The notes beneath the pieces were generated by a model, which made no database searches, was not told where the DNA came from, and was given only the letters and a program-made list of their open reading frames with translations. From Sphingomonas sp. (GTDB taxonomy: Bacteria; Pseudomonadota; Alphaproteobacteria; Sphingomonadales; Sphingomonadaceae), in the NCBI RefSeq assembly GCF_019746665.1, contig NZ_JAIERS010000001.1, forward strand, positions 1 to 64,000: a stretch of 64,000 nucleotides of DNA, read 5' to 3'. This document shows, one piece after another, positions 22,821-44,632 of this stretch. The position numbers and the translations under genes are program-made. How positions within the stretch are numbered: position 1 is the first letter of the stretch; the number at the start of each line of letters is the position of its first letter.

Positions 22821-22824
22821 GCGC

Positions 22825-23037
22825 CTACTCCTGGTGGCGACACGCGGTCGCGTCGTGTAGCGGCGAGGCACCGGCAACGGCCCCCGCGCCGATTGCCGTC
22901 CCGGGTAAAGCATGAAGGCCTAGCGCCGCCATGCGGTTGCCCAAGCCCATCCGACCGAAAACCGCAACCACCGCGCCGGTCGCCGCCGGCATAAGTGGTG
23001 CGCCGCCGCGCCCGATCGTCGGCTCGCCAGTCCTCAT
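22825..23037 (-). CDS. Small ORF (70 aa) between the operator and the MdeB-like gene
   Basis: Starts at an ATG 22 bases from the dyad at 23059-23074, has an SD-like GAGGAAGGG about ten bases upstream, and its TAG lies between the SD and the GTG of the MdeB-like gene, an arrangement suited to translational coupling. The protein has a Gly/Ala-rich hydrophobic middle (GAVVAVFGRMGLGNRMAALGL) that could be a membrane segment, and no recognised family. It could equally be a non-coding leader. Its position relative to the operator matches that of every other gene in the regulon, which is the best reason to list it. Confidence 0.35.
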   Translation of the reverse strand: MRTGEPTIGRGGAPLMPAATGAVVAVFGRMGLGNRMAALGLHALPGTAIGAGAVAGASPLHDATACRHQE

Positions 23038-23058: not shown

Positions 23059-23074
23059 ATGACTGACCGGTCAT
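23059..23074. promoter_or_regulatory. TetR-type operator, copy 1: ATGAC-TGACCG-GTCAT
   Basis: Perfect five-base arms ATGAC/GTCAT around six bases. One of six copies in this window, all intergenic. It lies 22 bases before the 70-aa ORF and 239 before the MdeB-like gene. Confidence 0.75.
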
Positions 23075-23120: not shown

Positions 23121-23876
23121 TTAGGCCGGCAACAGCGGAGCGATGCGCGCGGCGCTCCCGCGAATGTCCGCTTCCAGAGCGGCGGCGGCCTGGTCCCCGT
23201 TGCCCGTGGCCAGGCCGTCGATGATGCGGGCGTGACGCGCAAAGTCTTCCTGCTGATCGAGCTCGGCTTCGATCAACGAGAAGAGCGGACCGATCCGCAG
23301 CCACGCGGCGAGGATGATTTCGCACACGTCGAGCATCCCCGATGCGCCGTAGATGGCGAAATGAAAATCGAAATTGGTCTTGAGCAGCGTGCCACGGGCC
23401 AAGTCGGCGGCGGAAGCCGCGCGATAATCGTCATTCAAGTCGCGCAGCCGCTCCACCAGCGCATCGTCGCGCCGCGCCGCCGCACGTGCCGCCACCAGGG
23501 TTTCCAGCCGCACGCGCGCCTCGATGATGTCGAGGAAGCGAGTCGCGCCGAGCGTGGCGATCACGAAGCCGCTCTGCGGTTGCGCCAGCACCACCCCTTC
23601 GGCGGCCAGCCGGCGAAGCGCGTCCTTCACCGGCATCGTGCTCGTTCCCAGACTCTCGGCGAGCGCGCGCGTGGAGAGCGCCTCGCCCGGCCGAAAGGCG
23701 CCGATCATCAACGCATCGCGGAGCTGATCGTAAACCGCGTCCTGCATGGTCCTGCCGGGGCGCGCGCTGAGCGGCCGCAGCAGAAGATGGTCGACGACCG
23801 GACGGCGGCGCCCCCGGCGCGGTGGGGGTGGCGCGGCCGCGTCACCTGGGCTGGCGGCGAGAATCTTGCTGTCCAT
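23121..23876 (-). CDS. GntR-family (FCD) transcriptional regulator, probable hydroxyproline regulator
   Basis: Winged-HTH domain at about residues 40-105: QDAVYDQLRDALMIGAFRPGEALS, RALAESLGTSTMPVKDALRRLAAEG, followed by an FCD effector domain with the helical metal-binding pattern (FLDIIEARVRLETL, NFDFHFAIYGASG, RHARIIDGLATG). FCD regulators respond to small carboxylates and amino acids. It is the third gene of the run D-hydroxyproline oxidase - epimerase - regulator, which parallels the GntR-type HypR of Sinorhizobium hydroxyproline loci. Its likely sites are the CTGGTATCYCAG boxes at 26231, 39000 and 52421. The first ~40 residues are low-complexity Pro/Arg-rich; the true start might be later. 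Confidence 0.85.
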   Translation of the reverse strand: MDSKILAASPGDAAAPPPPRRGRRRPVVDHLLLRPLSARPGRTMQDAVYDQLRDALMIGAFRPGEALSTRALAESLGTSTMPVKDALRRLAAEGVVLAQPQSGFVIATLGATRFLDIIEARVRLETLVAARAAARRDDALVERLRDLNDDYRAASAADLARGTLLKTNFDFHFAIYGASGMLDVCEIILAAWLRIGPLFSLIEAELDQQEDFARHARIIDGLATGNGDQAAAALEADIRGSAARIAPLLPA

Positions 23877-23885
23877 TCGGCCATG

Positions 23886-24884
23886 CTAGCGAACTTGGAA
23901 GCCCCGCGCGAATGGTGCGTCGTCATCGATCCAAAGCTGGTTATACCCCGTCGCGTGCGCCGTACCCTGGATCGAAGGCAGGATCGCGTCGTAATCGCCG
24001 ACCCGCGTCGTGCCCTCGATCCGGCCGACGAAGCACGAGCCGATATAGCTGCGATGCTCGAACGCGATGCCCGGCGTCAGGCGCCCTGTGGCGGCGAGTT
24101 GCGCGAGCCGGGCCGACGTGCCGGTTCCGCACGGGCTGCGGTCGATCGCCCGCTCGCCATAAAAAACGGCGCTGCGCCCGCTGGTCCCGTCGTCGGCAAG
24201 CGCATCGGCCCAGAGAACATGGCTGACGCCGCGGATCGAAGGGTCGAGAGGGTGGACGGCGTCGATCGCGGCATCCACCGCCGCCCGCACCGGAGGACTG
24301 AGCGCCAGAATACCGCCCGCCCCGACCGCCTCGACGCCGGCGAAACCCGGCTGCGGCTCGACGATCGCGTAGAAATTGCCGCCATAGGCGATGTCGACGC
24401 GTAGCGGCCCGAGCCCCGGCACCTCGACGGTAACGTCGCGGCTGTGGAGGAAGCTCGGCACGTTGACCAGCCGCACCCATTCCACGCGATCGGCGCGCCG
24501 CGCAAAGCTCACGTCCAGAATCCCCGCCGGCACCTCGATCCGCAGCCGGCCCTCCTCGCGCGGCCGGATCAGCCCATGTTCTAGCGCGAAGGTTATCATC
24601 CCGATCGATCCATGTCCGCACATCGGCAGCACGCCGCTTGTCTCGATGAACAGGATCGAGGCGTCGCAGTCCTGCCGCAGCGGCGGATAGACGAACCCAC
24701 CAGACATCACGTCGTGCCCGCGCGGCTCGAACATCAGGCCGTCCCTGATCCAGTCGAAGCGCCGGATGAAGTCCTGGCGGCGTTCGCTCATCGTCGCGCC
24801 TTCCAGAAACGGCGCGCCACCGACCACGAGTCGCACCGGGTTCCCGGCGGTATGGCCATCTATGCAGAAGAAGTGAGAACGCAT
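23886..24884 (-). CDS. lhpA: 4-hydroxyproline 2-epimerase (proline racemase family)
   Basis: Epimerises trans-4-hydroxy-L-proline to cis-4-hydroxy-D-proline. Both catalytic cysteines are present: Cys89 in MCGHGSIG and Cys252 in SPCGTGTSA. The Cys/Cys pair separates racemases/epimerases from the Thr-containing 3-hydroxyproline dehydratases. The N-terminal FFCIDGHTAGNPVRLV is the family signature. I start at ATG 24884 with AAGGA upstream, giving 332 aa, the usual size; longer frames overlap the upstream oxidase. The SD overlaps the stop of that oxidase. Hydroxyproline rather than proline specificity is inferred from the co-operonic D-amino-acid oxidase and the deaminase at 39034. Confidence 0.88.
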   Translation of the reverse strand: MRSHFFCIDGHTAGNPVRLVVGGAPFLEGATMSERRQDFIRRFDWIRDGLMFEPRGHDVMSGGFVYPPLRQDCDASILFIETSGVLPMCGHGSIGMITFALEHGLIRPREEGRLRIEVPAGILDVSFARRADRVEWVRLVNVPSFLHSRDVTVEVPGLGPLRVDIAYGGNFYAIVEPQPGFAGVEAVGAGGILALSPPVRAAVDAAIDAVHPLDPSIRGVSHVLWADALADDGTSGRSAVFYGERAIDRSPCGTGTSARLAQLAATGRLTPGIAFEHRSYIGSCFVGRIEGTTRVGDYDAILPSIQGTAHATGYNQLWIDDDAPFARGFQVR

Positions 24885-24895
24885 CGTCGCGGTCC

Positions 24896-26185
24896 TTATT
24901 GTTGAGAGTCGCCGGCCGGCAGCGGGTGTTCGGCGGCGGTATTGGATCGCCTGATCGCGCCGAACCTTGCGAGCGCGAACATGGGCGGCGGCGGGGCTTG
25001 CCCGGCGATCATATCGCGGACGATCTCCCCCGTCCGCGCGGCGAGCGTCAAACCAAGATGTGCATGGCCTACCGCATAATAGAGCCCCGCCACCTCGTTG
25101 CCGCCGATGCCGGGGAGATAATCCGGCAGCGTCGGCCGGCACCCCATCCAGCGCGTGACGCAACCGCCGTCGAGCAGGCCAACCTCGCGCAGATGGTGCT
25201 CCAGCCGATCCCATTTGCGCGGATCGGGCGGGGTTTGCGGACGGCCGAACTCGACGAAGCTGGTGGCCCGCATCCGGTCGCCAAAGCGCGTCACGACCAC
25301 GGCGCGATCGTCGAGGACGAGCGGTGGCAGGTCCATCGGCCAGCCCGGTCTGTCGAAACCGACATGATAACCGCGCTCGGCGATCAGCGGCGCGGGGATG
25401 CCGGCGGCGCGCAGCAACGGCGCGGACCAGACCCCCGCCGCCACCAGGACGGCGTCCGCCGCGATCCGCGTGCCGTCGTCCAGCACGACGCCAGGGCGCG
25501 CGCCGCCCTGGACGGATCGGGCATGGCGGGCGATCCGCTCGACCCCGGCTTCATCGGCGAACCGCCGCACGCGCCGCAGCAACAGGCCGGGGTCCGTAAC
25601 CTGGCCGGTGCCGGTAAATCGCGCCGCGCCGAACGCGGTCAGCCGTAGTTGCGTGGCGAGTGCCGCCCGGTCGCGGGCACCGGCGGGCGCATAAGTGGTC
25701 GCGCCGGTGGCGCTGCGCGCGAGCGCCGCCATCCCGCGCTGCTGCGCGTCGCGCCCCTCCCAGACCACCAGATGCCCCTGCTCGCGGATCAGCGCGTCGG
25801 CATCCGGGCCGAGCAGCCGTCGCCACGCCGGGATCGCGTCGGCGGTCAGTGTCGCGAGCGCGGCGGTGCCGGCGCGAAAGCGGCCCGGGGCCGAGGCGGT
25901 GAGCAGGCGCAGGGACCAGGGCAGCCATGCCGCCACATCGCGTGGCACGAACGCGACCGGCCCGCCTCGGCTGAACAGGCGTCGCGGCAGCGCGCGGACC
26001 AGCTTGAGCGAGGCAAGCGGCTCGACATGCTCGGTCGCGAGGTGGCCAGCATTGCCCCACGACGCCGGCTCGGGATCGTCAGGGGCCACATGCCGCACCC
26101 CCAGCCCGGCCCGCGCGATCGCCAGCGCCGCGCAAGAGCCGACAATCCCGCCCCCAACGACGATGACGGAACGTGGCTTGCTCAA
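24896..26185 (-). CDS. FAD-dependent D-hydroxyproline dehydrogenase (DadA/DAO family)
   Basis: Oxidises cis-4-hydroxy-D-proline to 1-pyrroline-4-hydroxy-2-carboxylate. N-terminal Rossmann motif VIVVGGGIVGSCAALAIARAG, the PEPASWGNAGHLATE segment that follows in DadA enzymes, VLVAAGVWSAPLLR, and the C-terminal FAD site YYAVGHAHLGLTLA. 429 aa is typical of single-subunit DadA-like enzymes; the multi-subunit LhpBEF form is absent. Starts at TTG 26185 after AAGGAAG. A CTGGTATCTCAG box lies 46 bases upstream. First gene of the three-gene hydroxyproline arm. Generic D-amino-acid dehydrogenase is the alternative. Confidence 0.83.
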   Translation of the reverse strand: MSKPRSVIVVGGGIVGSCAALAIARAGLGVRHVAPDDPEPASWGNAGHLATEHVEPLASLKLVRALPRRLFSRGGPVAFVPRDVAAWLPWSLRLLTASAPGRFRAGTAALATLTADAIPAWRRLLGPDADALIREQGHLVVWEGRDAQQRGMAALARSATGATTYAPAGARDRAALATQLRLTAFGAARFTGTGQVTDPGLLLRRVRRFADEAGVERIARHARSVQGGARPGVVLDDGTRIAADAVLVAAGVWSAPLLRAAGIPAPLIAERGYHVGFDRPGWPMDLPPLVLDDRAVVVTRFGDRMRATSFVEFGRPQTPPDPRKWDRLEHHLREVGLLDGGCVTRWMGCRPTLPDYLPGIGGNEVAGLYYAVGHAHLGLTLAARTGEIVRDMIAGQAPPPPMFALARFGAIRRSNTAAEHPLPAGDSQQ

Positions 26186-26230
26186 CGCCGCTTCCTTATG
26201 GAGGTTGGCGCCTCGACTTTGGACGCATAT

Positions 26231-26242
26231 CTGGTATCTCAG
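26231..26242. promoter_or_regulatory. GntR-type operator, copy 1: CTGGTATCTCAG
   Basis: One of three near-identical 12-mers in the cluster. It sits in the divergent gap between the D-hydroxyproline dehydrogenase (TTG 26185) and the serine hydrolase (TTG 26296). The flanks AT...AGAAAT are shared with the copy at 52421. Confidence 0.7.
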
Positions 26243-26295
26243 AAATGGCGTGCGAACGGCATCGCTGTCAAGACCTTCCGCGGCGGGAGAAGAGG

Positions 26296-27354
26296 TTGAC
26301 CATCGCGCTACGCCTGCAAGCGGCCCTGGAGGCGGCCACCTCGCCTTTGGCGCGCGCCGCGCTCGCGGTCGATGCGCCGGCGCTGGGCCTCGCGTGGCGC
26401 GGAGGCACCGCCGATCGCCCGTTTCGGATCGCCAGCATCACCAAGCCATTCGTGGCGGCGACGATCCATCGTCTCCGCGAGGAAGGCGTGTTGACCCTCG
26501 ACGATACGATCGCGCGCCACGCCACGGCGGAGACGCTGCTTGCGCTCACGCGGGGGGGCTATGATTGCGGCGCGATCACCTTGGCCCAGCTGCTGTCGCA
26601 CACGTCCGGCCTGACCGACCATAGCGTGGCGCCGGGCTTCGTGCGCGCCGTGGCCGCGGACCCGCGGCGGCGATGGACTCGTGCCGAGCAGATCGCGCTG
26701 GCGATGCGCGCCGGGCCGCCGATCGGCCCGCCCGGGGCGTGTTACGCCTATGCCGACACCGGCTATATCGTGCTTGGCGAGATCATCGAGCGCGTGACCG
26801 GCCTATCGCTGGCGCAGGCCGTCCGCCGCCTGGTCCGGCTCGATGCGCTCGGCATGGCGCAGACCTGGTGGGAGACGCTGGAGGAGCCGCCCGCTGGCGC
26901 GCCGGAACTTCAGCCGCAATGGCACGATGGCGCCTCGGCCAGCGACTGGCATCCATCGTTCGATCTATTCGGCGGCGGCGGGTTAATCTCGACCGTTGGC
27001 GATTTGAATCGCTTTCTGGCCGCCTTGCTGGCCGGCGAGATCCTGCGCCCGGCGACCGTTGCCGAAGCGCTAGCGACCCCCGCGGTGGCACCGGCGCAAG
27101 CCACGACGCCTGGCCGCAACCACTCGCTGCTCCTCGCGACGATGCGGATCGGCAAGCGTTGGTGCCTTGGCCATACCGGCTTTTGGGGAAGCGCGACGGT
27201 GCGATTGCCTGGAACGGGCGCGACTGTGTCGCTGTCGATCAACGCGTCGGGCGATCGCGCCTGGCGAGCGATGCTCGACCTGCTGGAGTTGATCGACACG
27301 ATGCTGGTGGCGGAGTGGTGCTCGCGGTCGGCTGGGGCTAAGCTGTCGCCATGA
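26296..27354 (+). CDS. Beta-lactamase-fold serine hydrolase (class C-like), probable peptidase or esterase
   Basis: A 352-aa cytoplasmic protein with the SxxK motif ASITKPF (Ser47, Lys50), a YAD in place of YxN (YAYADTGY), and a C-terminal HTG (CLGHTGFWG). These match the MEROPS S12 / DD-peptidase group that includes D-aminopeptidases, D-Ala carboxypeptidases and esterases. No signal peptide. I start at TTG 26296 since GGGAGAAGAGG precedes it at good spacing; upstream codons would cross the operator. The TetR gene overlaps its stop (ATGA). YAD rather than YxN is mildly unusual. Confidence 0.78.
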   Translation: MTIALRLQAALEAATSPLARAALAVDAPALGLAWRGGTADRPFRIASITKPFVAATIHRLREEGVLTLDDTIARHATAETLLALTRGGYDCGAITLAQLLSHTSGLTDHSVAPGFVRAVAADPRRRWTRAEQIALAMRAGPPIGPPGACYAYADTGYIVLGEIIERVTGLSLAQAVRRLVRLDALGMAQTWWETLEEPPAGAPELQPQWHDGASASDWHPSFDLFGGGGLISTVGDLNRFLAALLAGEILRPATVAEALATPAVAPAQATTPGRNHSLLLATMRIGKRWCLGHTGFWGSATVRLPGTGATVSLSINASGDRAWRAMLDLLELIDTMLVAEWCSRSAGAKLSP

Positions 27355-28148
27355 CCAAACCCATCGCCCGGCAAGGCGCTCCCCGCGCCGCCCGGCCCGC
27401 GCCCGCCCCCCGCGCGCGCGCCGCCATCCGCCCCGATCCCGTCCCGGCCCATGTCGCCGATCGCATGGATTTCGCGGGCCATCTGGCCGGGTGTGTCGAC
27501 GGCGCCGGCCGTGGGGAAAAGACGCGACTGAAGCTGCTGGGCTGCGGCTTGCGCCTGCTCGCCGACACGGGCTTTCGCAGCCTCAACGTCGATGACGTCG
27601 TCGGGCTGGCCGAAATCGCCAAGGGCACCTTCTATATCCATTTCACCAGCAAGGATGCCTTTCTGCTGGAGCTGGCGGACCGCTATGTCGCGTTCGAGGC
27701 CGCCGCCGCCCCGGAGCGCGATCCGGATGCCACGACTTTCGCGCAGGTGCGCGACTGGCTCGCCTGGTATGAAGAGATGTTCGCGCGCAATATCGGGGTG
27801 GTGCGCTGCCTCGTTCAGGCGGCGGAGACGAGCGAGGCGATGCGGGCGCTTTGGCATCGCCGCAACGCGGTGCTGATCGATCGCCTGCTCGGCAGCTACT
27901 TCCCTCCCAGCGGCGCCATCGATCCGGCGCTCGCGCGAACGGTGTTGCGGGTCGCCGGCGGGATGATCGACCAGAGCCTGTTCGAACGTCACCGCGTGCA
28001 GGTTGGGCCGGGCCGGCGCGAGCCCGACGATCGCGCGCTGCGGCTCGAGCTGCACGCCCTGCTCTGCTACCGCGCGATCTATGGCACCAATCCCCCGGCG
28101 GACGAGCTGAACGGAACCCGCGAGCTGCTGGCATGGCCGGGTCGGTGA
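27351..28148 (+). CDS. TetR-family regulator of the peptide-catabolic cluster
   Basis: A Pro/Ala/Arg-rich N-terminal tail (~55 residues) precedes a clear TetR HTH: KTRLKLLGCGLRLLADTGF, LNVDDVVGLAEIAKGTFYIHFTSKDAFLLEL, roughly residues 60-110, then a helical ligand domain. Translationally coupled on both sides. I propose it binds the six ATGAC-N6-GTCAY dyads between 23059 and 47636, since 16-base interrupted palindromes near start codons are typical of TetR operators and this is the only TetR gene in the cluster. The pairing is inference; the GntR-FCD regulator is the alternative binder. Confidence 0.85.
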   Translation: MTKPIARQGAPRAARPAPAPRARAAIRPDPVPAHVADRMDFAGHLAGCVDGAGRGEKTRLKLLGCGLRLLADTGFRSLNVDDVVGLAEIAKGTFYIHFTSKDAFLLELADRYVAFEAAAAPERDPDATTFAQVRDWLAWYEEMFARNIGVVRCLVQAAETSEAMRALWHRRNAVLIDRLLGSYFPPSGAIDPALARTVLRVAGGMIDQSLFERHRVQVGPGRREPDDRALRLELHALLCYRAIYGTNPPADELNGTRELLAWPGR

Positions 28149-29014
28149 GCGGCGGCGTCGCGATCCTCGGCACCGGCCTGATGGGGCTGCCGATGGCGGC
28201 CAACCTGGCACGCGCCGGGCTGCGCGTTTCGGCCTGGAACCGAACCATCGCCAAGGCCGAGCCGCTCGCGCGCCTGGGGGTGCGGCTTTGCGCGACCGCG
28301 GCAGAGGCGGTGACAGGCGCCGAGGTCGTGCTGATCATGCTGTCCAACGGTGCCGTGGTGGACGCGGCCCTGGCCGACATCGCCGATGCGCTTTCCCCCG
28401 GCACGACCGTGGTCGTGATGAGTTCGATCCCGGTCGAGGCGGCGCGCGCGCAAGCGGCGGCGCTCGCCGCGCGCGGCATTGGTTATGTCGACGCGCCGGT
28501 GTCTGGCGGCACCCGCGGCGCCGAGGCGGGCACGCTCGTCATCTTGGCCGGCGGCGGCGCGGCGGAGATTGACCGTCTCGCGCCGATATTCGCGCCGCTG
28601 GGGCGGGTGACCCGGGTGGGCCCGGTGGGATCGGGCCAGCTCGCCAAGCTTGCCAATCAGCTGATCGTCGGGGTCACGATCGGGGCAGTCGCCGAGGCGC
28701 TTATCCTCGCCGAGGCGGGGGGTGCCGATCCGGCGGCGGTGCGCGCCGCGCTGCTCGGCGGCTTCGCGGACTCGACGATCCTGCGCCAGCACGGCGCGCG
28801 GATGGTGGAGCGCGACTTCGCGCCGGGCGCGCATGCGACCACGCAGCTCAAGGATTTAACGACCGTCGCGTCGCTGGCGCGGAGCTTGAAGCTCGACCTT
28901 CCGTTCGCCACCCTCGCGCAACACGAATTCGCGGCGATGTGCGAGACGGCGCGCGGCGCGTTGGACCATAGCGCCCTCTACCTCGCGATCGGCGAGCGGC
29001 GCCGCGCGGACTGA
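28133..29014 (+). CDS. NAD(P)-dependent 3-hydroxyisobutyrate dehydrogenase-family oxidoreductase
   Basis: Beta-hydroxyacid dehydrogenase fold: GVAILGTGLMGLPMAANLARAG (nucleotide site; GxGxMG then MA), VVLIMLSNGAVVD, substrate loop YVDAPVSGGTRGAEAGTL, and the catalytic Lys in GSGQLAKLANQLIVG. 293 aa with the ATG at 28133, overlapping the TetR gene by 16 bases; a GTG at 28145 is an alternative. Family members reduce tartronate semialdehyde or oxidise 3-hydroxyisobutyrate. With the hydroxypyruvate-isomerase-like enzyme at 31436, a tartronate-semialdehyde reductase role is attractive but unproven. Confidence 0.85.
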   Translation: MAGSVSGGVAILGTGLMGLPMAANLARAGLRVSAWNRTIAKAEPLARLGVRLCATAAEAVTGAEVVLIMLSNGAVVDAALADIADALSPGTTVVVMSSIPVEAARAQAAALAARGIGYVDAPVSGGTRGAEAGTLVILAGGGAAEIDRLAPIFAPLGRVTRVGPVGSGQLAKLANQLIVGVTIGAVAEALILAEAGGADPAAVRAALLGGFADSTILRQHGARMVERDFAPGAHATTQLKDLTTVASLARSLKLDLPFATLAQHEFAAMCETARGALDHSALYLAIGERRRAD

Positions 29015-29087
29015 CGCTGGCCGATCGACCTTGCCAGCGCTTCGGCCCGGTCCCCCGGGCGCGCCATCGCTTGCATAGCCACCCAAC

Positions 29088-29103
29088 ATGACTTAGCAGT
29101 CAT
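29088..29103. promoter_or_regulatory. TetR-type operator, copy 2: ATGAC-TTAGCA-GTCAT
   Basis: Perfect arms, 28 bases before the BKACE start codon at 29131. Confidence 0.75.
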
Positions 29104-29130
29104 ATATGCGGGCGGAAGGACTGGCGTGAC

Positions 29131-30090
29131 ATGAAACAGCTCGACAAGGTCATCATCACCAGTGCGACGACGGGTGCCGGGCATATGCCGTGGATGTCGC
29201 CGCACCTGCCCTTGACCATCGAGCAGATTGTCGAAGACTCGGTCGCCGCGGCCGAGGCCGGTGCCTCGATCATCCACCTGCACGCGCGCGACCCGGAAAC
29301 TGGCGAACCGTCGTGCGATCCAAGGCTCTACGAGCAGTATCTGCGGCGCATCAAGCAGCGCACCAACGCCATCCTCAACCTGACGACCGGGCAGCCGCAG
29401 CGCAACGTTACCCCCGAACAGGCGATCGAGAACCGGCTTGCCGCCCCCCTCGCCTTCTCGCCCGAGATCACCTCGTTCAACATGGGACCGATGAGCTTCG
29501 CGACCTTTACCCTTGCCGAGCGCGCCCGGACCTCCGGCCAGCCGCTGCGCGAGTGGGAGGAGGCCTATCTCGAACTGTCGCGCCATCTGACGATGGCCAA
29601 CCCCTGGTCGCTGATGGAGCGGATCGCGCGCGAGCTGGGTGAAGATCGCGGGGTCCGGTTCGAATTCGAATGTTTCGACACCGGCCACCTCTACGCGCTG
29701 AAGGTGATCGCCGATGAAGGCTGGGTGAAACCGCCCTTCTTCATCCAATCGGTGTTCGGGCCGCTGGGGGGGATCGGCACCGATCCCAAGCATGTCCTGC
29801 ACTTCAAGGAAACGGCGGACATGCTGTTCGGCGAGGACTATATCTGGTCGCTGCTGGCGGCCGGCAAGGCGCAGATGAAGCTTACCACGATGGCGGCGTG
29901 CATGGGCGGCAATGTGCGCGTCGGCATGGAAGACAGCCTATGGGCCGGCCCCGGTGAACTCGCCACGTCGAGCGCCGACCAGGTGCGCCGCATACGCACG
30001 ATCTTGGAGGCACTCGGCCTTGAGGTGGCGACGCCGGACGAAGCCCGCGCCTATCTTGGCACCAAGGGCGCCGACCGGGTGGGATTCTGA
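29131..30090 (+). CDS. Beta-keto acid cleavage enzyme (BKACE, DUF849)
   Basis: Zinc-dependent TIM-barrel enzyme that condenses a beta-keto acid with acetyl-CoA and releases acetoacetate plus a new CoA ester, as in Kce of lysine fermentation. Family marks are KVIITSATTGAG, the zinc ligands in SIIHLHARDPETG, ILNLTTGQ, FEFECFDTGHL and the FFIQSVFGPLGGIG and GGNVRVGMEDSLW motifs. 319 aa, full length, all ligands visible. It is first in an operon with a class III aminotransferase and a TIM-barrel isomerase, behind operator copy 2. BKACE subfamilies have very different substrates; which keto acid is used here cannot be told. Confidence 0.87.
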   Translation: MKQLDKVIITSATTGAGHMPWMSPHLPLTIEQIVEDSVAAAEAGASIIHLHARDPETGEPSCDPRLYEQYLRRIKQRTNAILNLTTGQPQRNVTPEQAIENRLAAPLAFSPEITSFNMGPMSFATFTLAERARTSGQPLREWEEAYLELSRHLTMANPWSLMERIARELGEDRGVRFEFECFDTGHLYALKVIADEGWVKPPFFIQSVFGPLGGIGTDPKHVLHFKETADMLFGEDYIWSLLAAGKAQMKLTTMAACMGGNVRVGMEDSLWAGPGELATSSADQVRRIRTILEALGLEVATPDEARAYLGTKGADRVGF

Positions 30091-31439
30091 TGGCGTCGCT
30101 GTCCGACGCGCCGGCCGCCGCGCGCGGCTTCGCGACCGAGCGATCGGCAGAGCTGTTCGCCCGGGCCGAACGGGTGATGCCATCCGGCTATACCCGCGAC
30201 CTCGTCGCCCAGCTCCCTCACCCGCAATATGCCAGTCACGCCCAGGGCTGCTGGCTGACCGACATTGACGGCAACCGGCGGATCGATTGGGTGAACAACT
30301 TCACCTCGATGATCCACGGTCATGCCCCGCCCGCCGTGGTGCGCGTGATCGCCGAACAGGCCGGGCGGCTGATGAACGCGGTGCTGCCGACCGAATGGGA
30401 AGTCGGCCTGGCAGAACATCTGGTCGATCGGGTGCCGGGGATCGACCGCATCCGGTTCACCAATTCGGGCACCGAGGCCAATGCGATCGCCGTTAAGGCC
30501 GCGCGCGCCTTCACCGGCCGTTCCAAGGTCGCGAAGATCGAGGGGGGCTATCACGGCCAGTTCGACCTGCTGGAGGCGAGCCACCAGCCAACGGCGCCGC
30601 TCTGGGGGCCGGCGGAGCGGCCCGTCCCCGTGCCGCACAATCCCGCCACGCCCCAGAGCCTGCTCGACGAACTGGTGATCCTGCCGCTCAACGATATCGC
30701 CAACAGCCGCGCCATCCTGGCCGAACGGGCAGCCGAGCTGGCCGCCGTGATCATCGACCCATGGCGCCTCCAGGCGGGCATGGTCAGCCCCCGGCGGGAC
30801 TATCTGGAGATGCTGCGCGAGGAGACCGCGCGGCTGGACATCGTGCTGATCTTCGACGAGGTCGTTTCGCTGCGTGCGAGCCATGGCGGCGCGCAGGGGC
30901 TGCACGGCATCCTTCCCGATCTCACCACGCTCGGCAAGATCATCGGCGGCGGCCTCCCGATCGGCGGTGTTGGCGGCAGCGCGGCGGTGATGTCGGTGTT
31001 CGAGATGGGTCGTCCCGACGGCAAGGTGAAGCATTCGGGCACCTTCACCGCCAATCCGTTGTCGATGGCGACCGGGCTCACCTCGATGCGCCTGCTGACC
31101 CGCGCGGCGCTGGAGGACCTGAGCGCGAAGAGCGAGCGGCTGCGCGAGGGGCTCCGCCGCGCCATCCGCGATACCGGCCTGCCGGGCGACGTGACCGGCG
31201 ACGGTTCGGTGAGCGCGTTGATGCTGACCGATCAACCCACCGAGAATTTCCGCCAGTTCGCGCACGCGCTGCAAAACGGCCTGATGGCCCGATTGCTGGC
31301 GCTGCAGGCGCTGCTGACCGAGGAGGGCATCTTCACGCTGCGCGGCAACTTCATCGGCTCGACCCCGATGACGGACGATGACGTGGATTTCACGATCGCT
31401 GGCGCGACACGGGCGATGCGCCGCTTGGCCGAGGCGTGA
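30090..31439 (+). CDS. Class III aminotransferase / glutamate-1-semialdehyde aminomutase-like PLP enzyme
   Basis: PLP fold-type I enzyme with MPSGYTRDLVAQLPHP at the N-terminus (GSAM-like), FTNSGTEANAIAVKAAR, KIEGGYHGQFD, IFDEVVSLR and the PLP Lys in TTLGKIIGGGLPIGG. 449 aa. The real hemL would be a housekeeping gene; this copy is coupled to BKACE (TGATG) and to the next gene (GTGA), so it is a catabolic aminotransferase or 1,2-aminomutase. IDPWR before the cofactor Asp, where most members have EPV, may mark a distinct subgroup. It probably makes or consumes the beta-keto acid split by BKACE. Confidence 0.85.
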   Translation: MASLSDAPAAARGFATERSAELFARAERVMPSGYTRDLVAQLPHPQYASHAQGCWLTDIDGNRRIDWVNNFTSMIHGHAPPAVVRVIAEQAGRLMNAVLPTEWEVGLAEHLVDRVPGIDRIRFTNSGTEANAIAVKAARAFTGRSKVAKIEGGYHGQFDLLEASHQPTAPLWGPAERPVPVPHNPATPQSLLDELVILPLNDIANSRAILAERAAELAAVIIDPWRLQAGMVSPRRDYLEMLREETARLDIVLIFDEVVSLRASHGGAQGLHGILPDLTTLGKIIGGGLPIGGVGGSAAVMSVFEMGRPDGKVKHSGTFTANPLSMATGLTSMRLLTRAALEDLSAKSERLREGLRRAIRDTGLPGDVTGDGSVSALMLTDQPTENFRQFAHALQNGLMARLLALQALLTEEGIFTLRGNFIGSTPMTDDDVDFTIAGATRAMRRLAEA

Positions 31440-32245
31440 CGGCGGCAGCGCGGATCAGCGCGAGCGTTTCGATGATGTTTGGCGAATTGCCGTTCGCGGC
31501 GCGCTTCGCCGCGGCGGCCGCCGCCGGGTTCGACGGCGTGGAAATCCAGCGTATCGATGAAGCGACGCCACACGCGATCGCCGCCGCCGCCACTCAGGCC
31601 GGCGTTCAGGTGGCGCTGATCAATGTGCCGATGGGCGATCTGCTGTCGGGCGGCCCCGGGCTATCGGGCGTTCCGGGGCGCGAACAGGCCTATGTTCGCG
31701 CGCTGCACCAGGCGTTCGAGACCGCCACGTTGATCGGCGCGCATCGCGTCCATCTCGGCCCGTCGCGGGTGCCGCCGGGCCTATCGCGCGACGATTGCCT
31801 GCCAACTTATCTCGCCAATATCGCCACCGCCGCCGAGCTGAGCGCGGCCGCGGGCATTCCGGCGGTGGTGGAGGGCATGAACCGTGTCGACGCACCGGAC
31901 GCATTGATCGCATCGGTCGATCTCGCGGCGGAAATGGTGCACCGGGTCCCCGGCATCGGGCTGTTGTTCGACGCCTATCATGTCGCCAAGGGGGGGCATG
32001 ACCCCGCCGCCGCCTTTGCCCGGCACCGCGCGATCGCGCGCCATGTGCAGATCGCCGACGCGCCCGCGCGCACCGCGCCCGGCACCGGCACCATCGCCTG
32101 GGATCGCTTCTTCGCGGCATTGGCGGACGCCGAATATGCAGGCTGGATAGGCGCGGAGTACCCGTGCGCTGGCGATACCCCCGCCACGCTTGGCTGGCTC
32201 AAACCGGCGCGGCGAAGCGCGCGCGCGGCCCCACCGCGAAGCTGA
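31436..32245 (+). CDS. Hydroxypyruvate isomerase-like sugar isomerase (AP endonuclease 2 fold)
   Basis: Xylose-isomerase-type TIM barrel: ISASVSMMFGELPFAARFAAAAAAGF style start, DGVEIQ, VEGMNRVD with the metal Glu, LLFDAYHVAKGG with the Asp/His, VQIADAPART, and the second metal Glu in IGAEYPC. Resembles Hyi/OtnI enzymes, which interconvert hydroxypyruvate and tartronate semialdehyde. GTG start overlaps the aminotransferase stop. The last 15 or so residues (Arg/Ala-rich) lie in a 47-base tail-to-tail overlap with the esterase gene on the other strand. Substrate not certain. Confidence 0.78.
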   Translation: MTAAARISASVSMMFGELPFAARFAAAAAAGFDGVEIQRIDEATPHAIAAAATQAGVQVALINVPMGDLLSGGPGLSGVPGREQAYVRALHQAFETATLIGAHRVHLGPSRVPPGLSRDDCLPTYLANIATAAELSAAAGIPAVVEGMNRVDAPDALIASVDLAAEMVHRVPGIGLLFDAYHVAKGGHDPAAAFARHRAIARHVQIADAPARTAPGTGTIAWDRFFAALADAEYAGWIGAEYPCAGDTPATLGWLKPARRSARAAPPRS

Positions 32246-33113
32246 GTGCCTTGGAAAGGGCCGCCGGCACGACGCCGATATGACCTTCATCGGCAATAAC
32301 GCGTAGCGCCACATTCGCGGGCGGCAACACCGTGGCGAGCGCCGCCGCCATCTCGCGGGCATTCTCCACCATCCGCCCCCGCGCGAACATCGCGTCCATC
32401 TGCTGGGCGACGTCCTCGGGAATCCCCTCGGGCAGTTCGGCGTGGGTTTCGCGCGCGCCGACGGTGATCAGCACGCGCGGCGGCGCGCCGATGCCACCCA
32501 TCTGCGCACGAAACCCCGGAAGCGCGTCGAACATCATCCGATCACCCCACCAGAGCGACGGGCTGCTCGCGACATAGGTGGAAAAGACGTCGGGTTGCTG
32601 GAACAGGCTATGCAGCGCGAACAATCCGCCCAACGAGTGGCCGAACAACGTTCGGCGGGCCGGGTCGACGGGGTGGATCGCGGCGATCGCCGGCAACACC
32701 GCGTCCGTCACGAAGCGGCGAAAGACATCGGCGCCGCCGAGCGCCAGGCCCGGCTCCGGCACGATGAATTGGGGCAGCTTGTCGCGGTCTGTCGGCGGCG
32801 TCAGATCAGTGTTGCGCAGCGAAAGGGTTCGCTCGATCCCGGCGTCCGGATAGCCGATCGCCACCACCAGCGCGGCCGCGCAATCGCCGAGCGCCCGGAC
32901 GGCGGCATGCGCGGCGAGCGTCGCGAAATTGGCCGGGCCGTCGGTCGCGAGGAACAGCGGCCATCCCGCGGGCGGGGGCGCTTGCGCGGGCCGGGCGATC
33001 CAGAGGCGATAGGTTCTGCCGTTCGCGTAGCAAGGCAGGTCGAAGGTCTCGCTGTGATCGATCACGGCCGGCCCCAGCGGGATCAGGCCGTTCGTGGTAG
33101 CGGCCTCAGTCAT
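32199..33113 (-). CDS. Esterase D/IroE-type alpha/beta hydrolase
   Basis: Putative serine esterase of the siderophore-esterase (Fes/IroE/BesA) fold: LFLATDGPANF, VVAIGYPDAG, the nucleophile elbow TLFGHSLGGLFALH, SPSLWWGDRMM following it, and the late GHIGVVPAALSKAL with the catalytic His. No signal peptide is visible. I start at MTEAATTNG (33113), overlapping the stop of the upstream hydrolase gene by eight bases. Siderophore-type hydrolysis is the family norm, but its operon partners are peptidases and beta-lactamase-fold hydrolases, so a peptide- or depsipeptide-ester substrate is possible. Confidence 0.8.
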   Translation of the reverse strand: MTEAATTNGLIPLGPAVIDHSETFDLPCYANGRTYRLWIARPAQAPPPAGWPLFLATDGPANFATLAAHAAVRALGDCAAALVVAIGYPDAGIERTLSLRNTDLTPPTDRDKLPQFIVPEPGLALGGADVFRRFVTDAVLPAIAAIHPVDPARRTLFGHSLGGLFALHSLFQQPDVFSTYVASSPSLWWGDRMMFDALPGFRAQMGGIGAPPRVLITVGARETHAELPEGIPEDVAQQMDAMFARGRMVENAREMAAALATVLPPANVALRVIADEGHIGVVPAALSKALSFAVGPRARFAAPV

Positions 33114-35034
33114 GCGGCGCCTCTCCATCGCGGACGAAGCGATACTCTTGCTGCGCTTCGCGCAACACCAGGGCGACGACGCTGCCCTGGGCGTCGGTTT
33201 CGGCGGCGAAGGTCAAGCCCCGGAGCAGCGGGTCGATCGTGACGAAGGCGAGCATGTCCCCCACCCGCTGCACGCCGACCGCCAGATCAAGCCCGTTGAC
33301 GCGGAAGGCGACGCCGTCGCTCCCCCGCGACACGCTGAGCGTTCCAATCTCGGCGGACCGATAGCGCACGGCGAGCCGCGCGGCGTCCGACGGGGGTGGC
33401 GGCAACCGCACCACCCGCGCCCAATGGCGGCGCTCGGCGGCGACGCGCGCCACCATGCCCTCTATCTGCGCCTCGGCTTTCGGTTCCGCGCCATAGATCA
33501 GCTCGATCAGCCGGCGCCGAAACGCGGGCAGCAGGAACTGGCCATTATCGGCATTGGTCAGCACGACCGCGGCGATGCCGGCTTCGGGCAGGATCGCGAA
33601 ATCGCTCATCGCACCGGGCAGGCTGCCGCCATGCGCGATGACGGTGACATCGCCACTGCGATCGATGTTCAGCCCCATGCCGTAAGCGCCGCATTCGCCG
33701 ATGGTGACGAAGGGTTCGCGCCGTTCGAGCAGCGCGTCGCGCCCGATCAGTCGCTTGCCGTCCAGCATCCCTTCGCCAAGCTCGAGCCGGACATAGCGCA
33801 GCATGTCGGAGACGCTCGACCAGGCCGCGCCCGAAGGCCGCAGCGCGTGGACCGCGCCATCCAGGTCGCGATCGCTGGCGACCGGGCGACCGGCCAAATC
33901 GGTGCCATGCGCCGCCGCGAACGCCCCGCCACGCACGCGGCGTGGGTCGAAGCAGGTATCGGCCATGCCCAGCGGGTCCAGAACGCGCTCCTGTATCGCC
34001 CGATCATAGCCGACGCCCGGATCGAGCTCGGGATGGGCGATGCGGCCGGCCACGAAACCGGCCGCGGCCGCGAGCAGGTTGCTGTACTGATACACCTCGC
34101 CGAAACCGCTGGTCGGCACGGTGCGCGCGAGCAGATCGAAGGTGCGCGACGCCGGCGTCGCCCGATCGAAGACAAGGCTCCACGCCAGGTCCGCGCGCGG
34201 CAACCCGGTCGATGCGCTGACGAGATGGCGGATTTGCGCCAGCTCGGTCGCATCGGGCGAGCCGAGGCGGAAAGCGGGGTAAACGTCGCGGACGCGGTCC
34301 GTCCATCGCACCCGCCCCTCGTCCACCAGCATCGCGAGCAGCAACGTCGTCAGCGGCTTGGTGTTGGAGGCGATGCGGAAACGCGTATCGGCGGTCACCG
34401 GGTCGGCGCGCCGTACGTCCCGCACGCCGATGCCGCCGGCGAAGAGCACGCGGTCTCGGGTCGCGACGCCAAGGCCGATGCCGGGCACTGCCAGCCGCCG
34501 CGCGGCGTGCGCGAGGAAGCCGCGGAGCGCCTCAACCTCGGCCGCGCCAAATTCACGCGGCGGCGTGCCGGCAAAGCTTTCGCGCGCGAAGCCGGGCGCG
34601 CGGAGCGATTGCATGACCAGCACCGCCGCCGCCATGCGTCGTTCGAAGGTCGCGCTCGCGCCGTCGAGCAGGGCGAGCGTCCAACCGGCCGCGCCGCGAT
34701 AGCCCACCGCCGAAGCCCAGCCCCGCGCGGCCGGCGGCGGATCGAAAGCGATGACGCGAATCGCGCCCCAGCCGTCGCGCGTCGGTTCGTCTCCCGCCAC
34801 GCGTATTGGCGGCGGCGGGCCGATCAAGCGCTCCCAGGCCGCGGTCGCCGCCGCCTCGGCGGTGTCGCCGGCTTCGTTCTCGATCAGGCGGATCGCGAAA
34901 TCGCCCTCGGGCGCCGTCACCGTGATGCCACCGAGGCCCGGCTCGATCCGCCAGCCGCGCGGCAGCGTCACGCTGGCGCCGGTCGCGAGCCTGACGGCTG
35001 TATCGCCGGTGAGGACGCGGGCAGCCTCGGTCAT
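33106..35034 (-). CDS. Large serine hydrolase: unknown N-terminal domain plus beta-lactamase (S12) domain
   Basis: Residues 1-150 form a domain (WRIEPGLGGITVTAPEGDF...) of the type that precedes S12 domains in some bacterial serine hydrolases. From about residue 175 a class-C beta-lactamase/D-aminopeptidase domain follows with SxxK ASNTKPL (Ser223, Lys226), YxN in YQYSNLL and HGGSLPG. A C-terminal beta domain after ~560 resembles lipocalin-like DUF3471 tails. No signal peptide. Start at ATG 35034, overlapping the S9 peptidase stop (ATGA); a longer frame to 35157 lies inside that gene. 642 aa. Likely cleaves D-residue peptides or amides. Confidence 0.78.
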   Translation of the reverse strand: MTEAARVLTGDTAVRLATGASVTLPRGWRIEPGLGGITVTAPEGDFAIRLIENEAGDTAEAAATAAWERLIGPPPPIRVAGDEPTRDGWGAIRVIAFDPPPAARGWASAVGYRGAAGWTLALLDGASATFERRMAAAVLVMQSLRAPGFARESFAGTPPREFGAAEVEALRGFLAHAARRLAVPGIGLGVATRDRVLFAGGIGVRDVRRADPVTADTRFRIASNTKPLTTLLLAMLVDEGRVRWTDRVRDVYPAFRLGSPDATELAQIRHLVSASTGLPRADLAWSLVFDRATPASRTFDLLARTVPTSGFGEVYQYSNLLAAAAGFVAGRIAHPELDPGVGYDRAIQERVLDPLGMADTCFDPRRVRGGAFAAAHGTDLAGRPVASDRDLDGAVHALRPSGAAWSSVSDMLRYVRLELGEGMLDGKRLIGRDALLERREPFVTIGECGAYGMGLNIDRSGDVTVIAHGGSLPGAMSDFAILPEAGIAAVVLTNADNGQFLLPAFRRRLIELIYGAEPKAEAQIEGMVARVAAERRHWARVVRLPPPPSDAARLAVRYRSAEIGTLSVSRGSDGVAFRVNGLDLAVGVQRVGDMLAFVTIDPLLRGLTFAAETDAQGSVVALVLREAQQEYRFVRDGEAPHD

Positions 35035-37349
35035 TGCCAGGCGGCCTCGTGCGCGGCGGCACGAGCCATCGCCGCGACATCCTCGGCTCGATAGCGCGGG
35101 GCGTGATCGTCCCCCGGCGGCTCCTCGCCGCGCAGATGGCGCAGGAAAAAGTCCCACATGCGGCGTTGAACATCGGCGCTCGTGGCCTGGAGCAGATGCC
35201 CTTCATTGGGGACGATCACCAGATCGAAGCTTTTGCCGGCATCGGTCAGCCGCCGCGCGAGGCTGATGGCGTGCGCCGGGTGTACATTTTCGTCCATGTC
35301 GCCATGGACGATCATCAACGCGCCGCGCAGCCCGGCGGCCTCGCGACCCGTCACCTGGCGCGCCCAGCGGTCGTCGCCGTCGGGGCCGACATATTTCTCC
35401 AGCCAGCCCGCGAAGTAATGCGCGGGATCGTCGGTGCCGCAGATCGCCACGCCCGCGGTGAAGATATCCGGATAACGGAACAGCGCGGTCGCGCTCGCAT
35501 AACCTCCGGCCGAGGAACCGACGATACCGGCGCGAGCGCGGTCGATGAAGGCGAACCGCGCGCGCAACTGCGCGACGATCGCGACATGATCAGCAAGTTG
35601 CGGCTCCAGCAGATCGCCATAGCCCGCCTGATGAAGGGCGCGCGGCCGCATCGGCAGGCCGCGTGTGTCGGCCACGACCACGGCGAAGCCAAGCGCGGCG
35701 AGCGCCTGCGCCTGGCACTGCATCCGACCCCAGAAACTGCGGGCGAGAACAACCGATTGTGGGCCGGGATAGATGCAGTCGATCAGCGGCAGCGTCGCTT
35801 CGCCGTCATGGTCGGCGGGCAAGTACAAGGCGGCGCGCAGTGGCGTGGCGCCATCGGCGGCCACCAGATCGAGCCAGACCGGCTCGGACATCGTGATCGC
35901 GGCGCGATCGAGCGTGGCGAGCGTTGTTTCCCGCCCGGTGGCAAGATCGGCGACTATGGTCGTCACACCGTTCGCCGGCGACGCGCGACGCACCACCGCC
36001 CAGTGGCCGCCGGGTGAGACCGAACCAGGCCCCCGCGGCAAAGCATAGGGTCGATCAGCCGCGAATGGCCCGTCGAGCGCCGCCCGCACGCCAAGGTCCG
36101 CGCCACATGGCCGCACCAATATATCTAGTCCGTCGCGATCGAGATGCGCGCGAACGATCGTCCGCAGCAGATAGTCGGTCGGGTCAAGCCCCGTTACGGC
36201 GAGCAGCAACGTCCGGGCCGCCTCTTCCACATGCAGAATATCGCGCACCTGAAAATCGCCGCGCGTGATTTGGCGCCGAGTGCCGCCCGTCGCCGCATCC
36301 AGCAAATAGAGATGGCCCCGCCCATCGCGTTCCGACCACCAGATCAGTTCGCCCGTCGCGGGCAGGACGCGGACGTTCGGCGGCGCGCCGACAAGCGGAT
36401 GCGCCTCCAGATAGCCGCCTTCAACCCGTTCTTCGGCGACGATGCGTTCGCGACCGTCGCACAGGCGAACTTCGGCAAGTTCCAGGTGCCGGTGCCACCG
36501 ATCGGTGCGCAGCGCGTAGAAGGCGTCGCCCGCGAACCAGGCATGGCGCGTCGCGACCGGCGGGAACATATGCACCGGGCGCGGCGCCGCCTCGATCCGT
36601 CGGCCGGTGGCCAGTTCGATCGCCGCGGTGGTCGCGATCGGCAACGCGACATCGGCGGCGGTCGCGAAACGGTGGACGTGAAAGCGCGGCGGCCCGCCGT
36701 CCGCGGGCGCGTTTTCGACCAAGGTGCGCAACGGCAGGTGGCGTTCATCGATCCGGTCGGCGAGCAGCCAGCGCCCGTCCGCGGAGAATTGCACCACCGG
36801 AAATGGCTGGCGACGATAGCTGATTGTCGCGGCGTAAGTCTGCGGTGCCTGCCCCCAGGGGCAGTCCGCGATACCATCCGCGGTCAACCGTCGCTCAACC
36901 CCATCGACCAGGTCGATCAGCGCGAGATCGTGCCCGGCGACGCGCACGGCATGGCGTCCACCCGGGGCATAAGCGAGCGGTGCATCGTCATGGCGATCCG
37001 CGACGACCGTGTCGCGCGCGAGGTCGATCAAATGCGACCGCCCGGCCAACCGCACCGCCAAACGGCCAGGCTCTGGCAGGTCGAAATCGGCTGCCGCGAC
37101 CGTCGCCGCCGGCGCATCGGGAAACCAGCGCCGTAGATCGTCGTCCGATGCTAGCGCGCGCGTTTCGCCGGCTTGCGCATCGTGCATCATCGGTACGCGC
37201 CGGACCGCGCCGGCGACCATCGCCTCAGACAGGAAGAAATAGCGCCTATCGTCGATCCAATAGCCATGCACGGCATTGTTAACGAGCGCCGCGGCCATGT
37301 TCGCCGGCAGCAAGCGGGCGGCACGCGTGTAGCGATCGGCGGCGTTCAC
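35031..37349 (-). CDS. S9-family prolyl dipeptidyl peptidase (DPP-IV-like)
   Basis: Beta-propeller N-terminal half (~residues 90-500; repeated strand motifs and a WSERDGRGHLYLLDA blade) and an alpha/beta hydrolase C-terminal half with the nucleophile GIVGSSAGGY, Asp in HGDMDENVHP and His in VPNEGHLL. These are the DPP-IV/prolyl-oligopeptidase triad; the elbow is GSSAGGY instead of the usual GWSYGG. The CIYPGPQSV oxyanion-loop segment is typical. No signal peptide, so a cytoplasmic processing enzyme for imported Xaa-Pro or Xaa-Hyp peptides. Coupled to D-aminopeptidase-like gene upstream (ATGA) and to the hydrolase downstream. Confidence 0.86.
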   Translation of the reverse strand: MNAADRYTRAARLLPANMAAALVNNAVHGYWIDDRRYFFLSEAMVAGAVRRVPMMHDAQAGETRALASDDDLRRWFPDAPAATVAAADFDLPEPGRLAVRLAGRSHLIDLARDTVVADRHDDAPLAYAPGGRHAVRVAGHDLALIDLVDGVERRLTADGIADCPWGQAPQTYAATISYRRQPFPVVQFSADGRWLLADRIDERHLPLRTLVENAPADGGPPRFHVHRFATAADVALPIATTAAIELATGRRIEAAPRPVHMFPPVATRHAWFAGDAFYALRTDRWHRHLELAEVRLCDGRERIVAEERVEGGYLEAHPLVGAPPNVRVLPATGELIWWSERDGRGHLYLLDAATGGTRRQITRGDFQVRDILHVEEAARTLLLAVTGLDPTDYLLRTIVRAHLDRDGLDILVRPCGADLGVRAALDGPFAADRPYALPRGPGSVSPGGHWAVVRRASPANGVTTIVADLATGRETTLATLDRAAITMSEPVWLDLVAADGATPLRAALYLPADHDGEATLPLIDCIYPGPQSVVLARSFWGRMQCQAQALAALGFAVVVADTRGLPMRPRALHQAGYGDLLEPQLADHVAIVAQLRARFAFIDRARAGIVGSSAGGYASATALFRYPDIFTAGVAICGTDDPAHYFAGWLEKYVGPDGDDRWARQVTGREAAGLRGALMIVHGDMDENVHPAHAISLARRLTDAGKSFDLVIVPNEGHLLQATSADVQRRMWDFFLRHLRGEEPPGDDHAPRYRAEDVAAMARAAAHEAAWQ

Positions 37350-44616: not shown

Positions 44617-44632
44617 ATGACTGGTGCGTCAC
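44617..44632. promoter_or_regulatory. TetR-type operator, copy 4: ATGAC-TGGTGC-GTCAC
   Basis: Sits in the divergent gap between the M24 peptidase (15 bases) and the M81 gene (44 bases), so it could control both. Confidence 0.7.

Follow-up and report, generated by a model that had tools for sequence, protein, structure and literature searches.

The mechanism of enzymes of the BKACE (DUF849) family and the roles of Glu171 and Arg254 in BKACE15 are described in PMC11961710. A tyrosine (Tyr173 of PdKce, Tyr145 of CcaKce) is termed common to BKACEs in a preprint (PMC12871164), in which the phenylalanine of BsfD is linked to acetylation and subsequent decarboxylation, not to cleavage. Glu14 of Kce is reported to contact the 5-amino group (PMC10470551). 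Consumption of beta-amino acids by bacteria is described as little studied; beta-phenylalanine is transaminated, and the resulting beta-keto acid decarboxylates spontaneously (PMC6150868). The present analysis deals with four genes at 28133-32245 in a window of 64,000 nucleotides (nt) of Sphingomonas sp. (NCBI RefSeq assembly GCF_019746665.1, contig NZ_JAIERS010000001.1, positions 1 to 64,000 of the forward strand), which encode a BKACE enzyme, a class III aminotransferase, a TIM-barrel enzyme and a dehydrogenase of the 3-hydroxyisobutyrate dehydrogenase (HIBADH) family. This module is real and is probably co-regulated and catabolic. A TetR gene, a repeated palindrome and a probable regulon, all absent from the initial annotation, probably tie it to the catabolism of peptides and D-glutamate.

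Genes and active sites of the module

All four genes are intact and lie on the forward strand, and the coordinates given in the initial annotation proved correct. The dehydrogenase (28133-29014; NAD_binding_2 146 bits, NAD_binding_11 96 bits) is nearest to 2-hydroxy-3-oxopropionate (tartronate semialdehyde) reductases. It is followed by the BKACE enzyme (29131-30090; PF05853 305 bits, cut-off 24.8; no second PF05853 match was found in this genome of 3.1 Mb), by the GSAM-like aminotransferase (30090-31439; Aminotran_3, PF00202, 196 bits) and by a xylose-isomerase-like TIM barrel of the hydroxypyruvate isomerase or 2-oxo-tetronate isomerase (OtnI) type (31436-32245; AP_endonuc_2 122 bits). The BKACE gene shares 1 nt with the aminotransferase gene, which in turn shares 4 nt with the TIM gene. 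These overlaps speak for a single transcript, so that the proposed coupling of the three looks like one operon. The HIBADH gene does lie just upstream, as had been noted, but its first 16 nt also belong to the preceding TetR gene, and a gap of 116 nt containing a palindrome lies between it and the BKACE gene. It may therefore sit in the TetR transcript instead.

The initial annotation had asked for a comparison of the active site with characterised BKACEs. In the alignment, the zinc ligands His49, His51 and Glu267 are kept, and so are the catalytic Glu180 and Arg263, which align with Glu171 and Arg254 of BKACE15. The catalytic Tyr of the characterised enzymes, however, is replaced by Phe182. 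In 35 aligned rows (stretches shorter than 120 residues excluded), all five members of a clade formed by the window enzyme and four relatives have Phe at this position, whereas all 17 long-form sisters have Tyr; the 13 short-form or distant rows comprise 11 with Phe, one with Tyr and one with Trp. With this substitution, the standard cleavage of a beta-keto acid with acetyl-CoA is not assured. Altered chemistry is possible but not proven, and the substitution as proof of it was set aside, since most short-form DUF849 rows carry Phe as well.

The BKACE clade is separate in the tree (33 rows; stretches shorter than 200 residues or containing a stop excluded), with a support of 100/99. The window enzyme is of the long form, and its top solved relatives are 3e02 (338 bits), 3e49 (323 bits) and 8rio (299 bits). 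Relative to the BKACE15/PdKce structures, the loop that follows TTG is longer by an insertion of five residues. At the place of Arg91 of BsfD, which is in the loop after strand 3, Arg is found in the window enzyme (TTGQPQR); in the relatives G376 and G207 the Arg lies one and two residues further on, and L033 and G477 have none there. Against the NF053538 model (3,5-dioxohexanoate:acetyl-CoA), the window enzyme scores 417.2 bits and a second clade member 412 bits, both under the equivalog cut-off of 430; the three Tyr-bearing sisters tested all pass (476-531 bits). The score against the Kce model of NCBIfam is 186 bits (cut-off 382). At the position of Kce Glu14, which by our own reading is the Glu after TGA in 2y7d (chain numbered 6 higher), the window enzyme has Gly17 and the four clade relatives have Met. 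Gly17 speaks against a lysine intermediate as the substrate, and the neighbourhood does not resemble the lysine one, as first suggested. The NCBIfam matches included no model specific to carnitine.

The aminotransferase keeps Asp256 and Lys283, the pyridoxal phosphate lysine, in the alignment. As a single sequence it matches 6k8h with 364 bits; a five-row profile gives 490 bits for 6k8h, 363 for ForI, 328 for GSAM, 285 for 4ao9 and 279 for 2yku. Since the closest solved relative is 6k8h, which we take to be a beta-active transaminase, a beta-amino acid is suggested as the substrate. The step first assigned to this enzyme, transamination of an amino acid to a beta-keto acid, is thus one that it could perform, but the donor should be a beta-amino acid. 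Arg36, which aligns with the Arg of the NTR motif of 6k8h, and Arg418 are kept in all six members of its clade, which includes an enzyme of Paraburkholderia caribensis (tree support 100/99). The clade-specific PSGYTR and a C-terminal Arg418 motif are absent from the three aligned relatives of 42-44% identity.

In the two remaining enzymes, Lys172 and Asn175 of the dehydrogenase and Glu146, Asp179, Gln205 and Glu241 of the TIM enzyme are invariant in the alignments; we take these to be catalytic residues. The nearest solved structures of the TIM enzyme are 3ngf and YgbM (1k77). Its NCBIfam scores, 188 bits against Hyi and 174 bits against OtnI, are both below cut-off, as is the score of the dehydrogenase against the 2-hydroxy-3-oxopropionate reductase model (220 bits).

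A BKACE match is found in 29 of 101 genomes of the genus sample, the best besides the own copy having 55% identity. Aminotransferase relatives above 50% identity occur in 3 of 298 genomes of the family (own, G207, G376), 4 of 396 of the order (own, G207, G412, G477) and 1 of 385 of the class (own), these three samples overlapping. Altogether the clade aminotransferase occurs in five genomes of the order (own, G207, G376, G412, G477), and BKACE is adjacent in each, which means that the pairing exceeds chance. BKACE was also used to fetch 27 loci with flanks of 1.5-8 kb. The clade aminotransferase is missing from 26 of them; the 27th is L033 (QEVO01000004.1), a metagenome-assembled record with the same sequence as in G412 where compared. 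Seven aminotransferase relatives of about 42-44% identity have no BKACE within flanks of 1.5 kb. A plasmid search with the aminotransferase gave 100 records, and among the matches listed (best 15 of 100) there was one clade member, P. caribensis (54% identity). The corresponding BKACE search gave 156 records, with 56% identity as the best among the matches listed (best 15 of 156), and these records probably include no clade member. Viral contigs searched with the aminotransferase gave no match.

In the clusters of the four relatives, the TetR and TIM genes and a TonB receptor are present in 4/4 and HIBADH in 3/4. Compared with the window, these clusters carry extra genes. All four have an additional BKACE, an Rce1/CAAX-type protease, a C45-type hydrolase, an MR_MLE enzyme and an SGL lactonase, the last being a few kb away in G207. 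Three relatives share one kind of second aminotransferase, in place of which G376 has another kind; two SDRs are present in three relatives (one in G477) and an M20 amidohydrolase in two of the four. In all four copies of this second BKACE (L033:3883-4755, L041:14357-15232, L042:7971-8846, L051:1187-2053) the BsfD Phe is kept and the Arg91 position is occupied by Arg (TTGPGGR or TTGPGQR); for the L033 copy, BsfD is the closest match, with 362 bits. It looks like a BsfD-like enzyme in an apparently catabolic cluster. The Rce1/CAAX-type membrane protease adjoins the aminotransferase (L033:10306-11337, L041:2663-3724, L042:17018-18106, L051:8917-9923, the last match being split across two frames); no such protease lies beside the window aminotransferase. 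A plasmid search with the L033 Rce1-like protein returned 17 records, in all of which less than 80% of the query is covered; 15 bear the annotation CAAX/CPBP protease, and two are unannotated.

Palindromes and the proposed TetR regulon

The TetR-family regulator (27351-28148, forward strand; PF00440 37.7 bits), a proposed repressor, is preceded by a serine hydrolase of the beta-lactamase fold (26173-27354, forward strand; PF00144 158 bits), which overlaps the start of the TetR gene by 4 nt and is probably in the same transcript; a weak homologue (28-30% identity) is found at three of the four other clusters. A TetR gene is present at all four related clusters and is the sole regulator shown by the searches at every cluster. 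The four cluster TetRs aligned, window included and G477 copy excluded, all have the same AKGTFYI stretch in the region of the recognition helix.

The operator-like palindrome ATGACTTAGCAGTCAT is located at 29088-29103, 27 nt before the BKACE start. The same palindrome occurs at 23059-23074, 145 nt before a transketolase/AceE-like gene, at 38941-38956, at 47560-47575 and at 47621-47636, and a looser form, missed by the stricter scans, at 44617-44632. The form of the palindrome is ATGACY-N4-RGTCAT, or TGAC-N6-GTCA in the looser version. The latter occurs six times in the window (23060, 29089, 38942, 44618, 47561 and 47622) against a mean of 0.37 and a maximum of 2 in shuffled sequences, none of 100 shuffles reaching six; the stricter palindrome with one mismatch allowed occurs five times against 0.16 expected. 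With the chosen start codons all six sites are intergenic, in a window whose intergenic share is 6.1%.

In the whole genome, ATGACYNNNNRGTCA gave nine rows, corresponding to six distinct places. Five are in the window, and the remaining one falls within a coding frame that resembles, by eye, a TonB plug; the reversed control had no match in the own genome. The search of the four relatives with TATGACYNNNNRGTCA yielded 23 rows, corresponding to 17 distinct places, 16 of which are within the homologous clusters. The other one falls within a coding frame reading by eye like TolC, and the reversed control gave two rows. Of the 27 BKACE loci, 25 are without TGAC-N6-GTCA; L033 has three copies, and L004 has a single one, over 1 kb away from the BKACE gene there. 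The palindrome is thus confined to the cluster and common to the clusters bearing the TetR gene, and TetR probably binds these sites as the repressor of a regulon.

The proposed members of this regulon are distributed around the sites. Upstream of the module lies the thiamine-diphosphate enzyme of the AceE/transketolase type (20490-22913, reverse strand). The site at 38941 separates two groups. On the reverse strand are an esterase-like alpha/beta hydrolase (32199-33128), a serine hydrolase of the beta-lactamase fold (33106-35157), an S9 peptidase of the DPP-IV type (35031-37349) and a further beta-lactamase-fold hydrolase (37346-38902, start codon chosen), D-aminopeptidase-like below cut-off. 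On the forward strand are a DHDPS-family lyase (39034-39921, start codon chosen), an aldehyde dehydrogenase (39816-41405, true start probably later) and an M24 peptidase with a creatinase/prolidase-type N-terminus (41410-43194). The looser site at 44617 lies between an M24 peptidase of the aminopeptidase P type (43214-44602, reverse strand) and an MlrC-like M81 metallopeptidase (44676-46199, forward strand), whose best PDB match is 7ylq, Microcystinase C (309 bits). The last two sites precede an MFS transporter on the reverse strand (46100-47539) and, on the forward strand, an S15/CocE-NonD hydrolase (47646-49433) followed by a DgcN-like N-acyltransferase of D-glutamate catabolism (49430-50428; NCBIfam 456 bits, cut-off 480), a DgcA-like N-acyl-D-Glu racemase (50425-51417; 341 bits, cut-off 400), a pyridoxal phosphate lyase of the threonine ammonia-lyase type (51408-52397) and a TonB-dependent receptor (52448-54847). 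Taken together, the palindrome-linked genes read as a peptide-scavenging set with a D-glutamate route. The genes for the DgcN-like and DgcA-like proteins and the lyase (49430-52397) stand behind one palindrome, the first two being just below the NCBIfam cut-offs.

Two neighbouring stretches should also be mentioned. The region 6613-19558, which holds none of the six palindromes, reads as an island for the catabolism of N-acetylmuramic acid and N-acetylglucosamine (MurNAc/GlcNAc): it encodes an HGSNAT-like acyltransferase, GntR-UTRA, a MurQ-like SIS protein, an SSF transporter, a TonB receptor, an FAD-linked oxidase, AnmK, a second SIS protein, an NagA-type amidohydrolase and an NAGidase. The region 23121-26185 is a hydroxyproline route with GntR, 4-hydroxyproline epimerase (NF010578 521 bits, cut-off 376) and a DAO-type D-amino acid dehydrogenase.

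The proposed route and its alternatives

The best supported reading, to which we give about an even chance, is that the module forms the branch for beta-amino acids in a regulon under TetR control, by which an unusual oligopeptide is taken up and dismantled. TetR would occupy the ATGACY-N4-RGTCAT sites until a metabolite releases it. Upon this release, as the sites suggest, transport genes and peptidases would be expressed alongside the BKACE, aminotransferase and TIM genes. Judging from its relatives, the class III aminotransferase might then strip the 3-amino group off the released beta-amino acid, giving a 3-oxo (beta-keto) acid, and the BKACE-family enzyme would condense this acid with acetyl-CoA at its zinc site. 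Since beta-keto acids can decarboxylate spontaneously, trapping on the spot would matter. The outcome might be an acyl-CoA and acetoacetate, by standard cleavage, or a product of acetylation and decarboxylation, owing to Phe182. If the substrate has a 2-hydroxyl group, the oxo group might alternatively be moved from C3 to C2 by the TIM enzyme, and the product be reduced by the HIBADH-type enzyme. TetR as the binder, all the substrates and the order of the reactions are what we infer here. A more far-reaching proposal, which we consider doubtful, is that a catabolic clade, which arose within the long-form BKACEs by loss of the catalytic Tyr, does not cleave beta-keto acids from beta-amino acids but acetylates and decarboxylates them to beta-diketones, or another product, within a dedicated TetR-controlled route for peptides containing beta-amino acids; this would be a BsfD-like reaction used for degradation.

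The order of the steps is illuminated by P. caribensis (L094, NZ_CP013104.1, an unannotated record). At 13980-17478, an aminotransferase of 54% identity is followed by a TIM enzyme (32%) and a second aminotransferase; LysR and MFS genes are nearby, as are, further on, genes for an IlvD/EDD dehydratase and a HIBADH-type enzyme. BKACE is therefore not obligatory, and the TIM enzyme probably takes the product of the aminotransferase. The order in the initial annotation, in which BKACE acts before the remaining piece is isomerised or reduced, seems doubtful on this account.

Several observations weigh against the beta-amino-acid reading and its TetR regulon. In the 29 kb around the P. caribensis pair there is neither a BKACE homologue nor TGAC-N6-GTCA. 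In the aminotransferase profile, ForI and GSAM outscore the named beta-transaminases 2yku and 4ao9, so that the substrate could be other than a beta-amino acid. Phe182 and the NF053538 score under cut-off mean that BKACE may perform either cleavage or acetylation-decarboxylation. The HIBADH gene is located ahead of the palindrome; in G412 its homologue stands apart from the other cluster genes by about 3 kb, and the short G477 contig showed no homologue. The window scan detected no palindrome before the TetR transcript itself, and neither a sigma-70-like promoter before the BKACE gene nor a terminator around its start was detected by the scans there. The sites at 38941, 44617 and 47560 are coverable by longer frames, and their intergenic placement thus leans on the choice of start codons. 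The cluster genes are only partly annotated, so other regulators there remain candidates. Finally, the regulation, the binding and the enzyme activities are proposed from sequence, and the peptide substrate is putative.

The main rival, a possible but less probable account, is a route for acid sugars or alpha-hydroxy-beta-amino acids. A 3-amino-2-hydroxy acid (of the isoserine type, or a 3-amino-3-deoxyaldonate) would be converted by the aminotransferase to a 2-hydroxy-3-oxo acid, a product for which Hyi/OtnI-like and tartronate-semialdehyde-reductase-like enzymes would make sense. The TIM enzyme would isomerise it, HIBADH would reduce it to a 2,3-dihydroxy acid, and a dehydratase would open the latter, BKACE being a side branch. 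The nearest models of the TIM enzyme and the dehydrogenase fit this route, although none of the NCBIfam cut-offs was reached. The IlvD/EDD and HIBADH-type genes beside the P. caribensis pair argue in the same direction, as do the MR_MLE enzyme and SGL lactonase of the four related clusters, where the L033 MR_MLE enzyme is nearest to galactonate dehydratase, below cut-off. The window module, however, has neither a sugar-acid dehydratase nor a lactonase, and its peptidase surroundings suit peptides better.

The same surroundings bring to mind a peptide of the microcystin or nodularin type, from which the MlrC-like enzyme would free the C20 beta-amino acid Adda, to be degraded by the aminotransferase and BKACE while the DgcN/DgcA-like pair uses D-glutamate. 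We consider this improbable. The Microcystinase C match and the DgcN/DgcA-like pair stand behind the same palindromes as the module, but the score against the MlrC model is 319 bits with a cut-off of 999. MlrA is presumably a protease of the broad Rce1/CAAX type, such as adjoins the aminotransferase in the four other clusters; the L033 protein, however, matches the general CAAX model alone (43.6 bits against 425), and neither a PF02517 match nor a homologue of the clusters' Rce1-like protein was found in the own genome (95% complete), no true MlrA query having been used. In G376, homologues of MlrC (at best 41% identity) are encoded outside the cluster, and PaaA/PaaC-type genes occur in G376, G412 and G477; no PaaA/PaaC was found in the own genome or in the complete G207, and no MlrC homologue in the G207 or L033 genome (G477 was outside this search). 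A published mlrA primer, with at most one mismatch, found nothing in 199 genomes of the family, which says little since this sample contains no known true-mlrA genome. Full microcystin degradation was discarded as unsupported, given that neither an MlrA-type gene nor PaaA/PaaC was found in the own genome and that the MlrC score is low. An order as in a variant lysine fermentation, with BKACE first and a HemL-like aminotransferase acting on the beta-aminoacyl-CoA, is quite improbable as well. Kat is described as HemL-like and as linked to Kce (PMC3149608), but the window BKACE has no equivalent of Glu14 for an amino-bearing keto acid, its Kce score is far below cut-off, and no lysine-fermentation genes are among the annotated genes of the window. 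Least credible is that unrelated catabolic genes lie together by chance. Other catabolic islands do occur in the window, namely the MurNAc/GlcNAc and hydroxyproline ones, but the gene overlaps, the pair kept in five of five genomes and the shared, confined palindrome already contradict it.

Relation to described systems

In the titles and abstracts of the literature, no BKACE-aminotransferase operon for beta-amino acids was found among the matches listed; subscription literature is mostly outside this coverage, so that an earlier report in print is possible. The locus offers a testable gene set for beta-amino-acid breakdown, and the predicted operator with its small, confined regulon narrows the search for an inducer.

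Among the described pathways, the mlr microcystin pathway (PMC6563193, PMC9144602) has an MlrC-like peptidase in common with the window; in the own genome, however, no MlrA-type gene and no PaaA/PaaC was found, and the MlrC score is far below cut-off. The deoxyribonate operon of Pseudomonas simiae is alike in its BKACE and dehydrogenase, and the larger related clusters share a lactonase with it; as described (PMC6365646), however, that operon is without an aminotransferase, whereas the context in the window is one of peptidases. Lysine fermentation likewise ties a BKACE-family enzyme, Kce, to a HemL-like class III aminotransferase, Kat, the likeness of Kat resting on its description (PMC3149608); the Glu14 position and the annotated neighbours set the window apart from it. 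Of the beta-transaminases 6K8H, 4AO9 and 2YKU, the first is the best solved relative and shares the NTR-motif Arg, whereas PSGYTR and the Arg418 motif are the window clade's own.

BsfD of flavophos biosynthesis (9ZSC, 9ZSH, 9ZSN, 9ZSV; PMC12871164) shares with the window BKACE the DUF849 fold, Phe in place of Tyr and an insertion in the same loop. It is described as acting on a phosphonate in an antibiotic pathway, however, and the match to the window enzyme is just 116 bits, the second BKACE of the other clusters being much closer. A flip of CoA is described for BsfD as well. BKACE15/PdKce (8RIO, 8RIP, 9HNF), with the NF053538 model, has in common with the window enzyme the long form, the zinc ligands and the equivalents of Glu180 and Arg263. 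The window enzyme differs in Phe182 for Tyr173, in the insertion after TTG, in its separate clade and in missing the NF053538 cut-off. Both this residue and the gene context distinguish the Phe-bearing clade from the sisters that carry Tyr, and a comparison of the two is a natural experiment on whether the choice between cleavage and acetyl transfer depends on the Tyr of BKACE.

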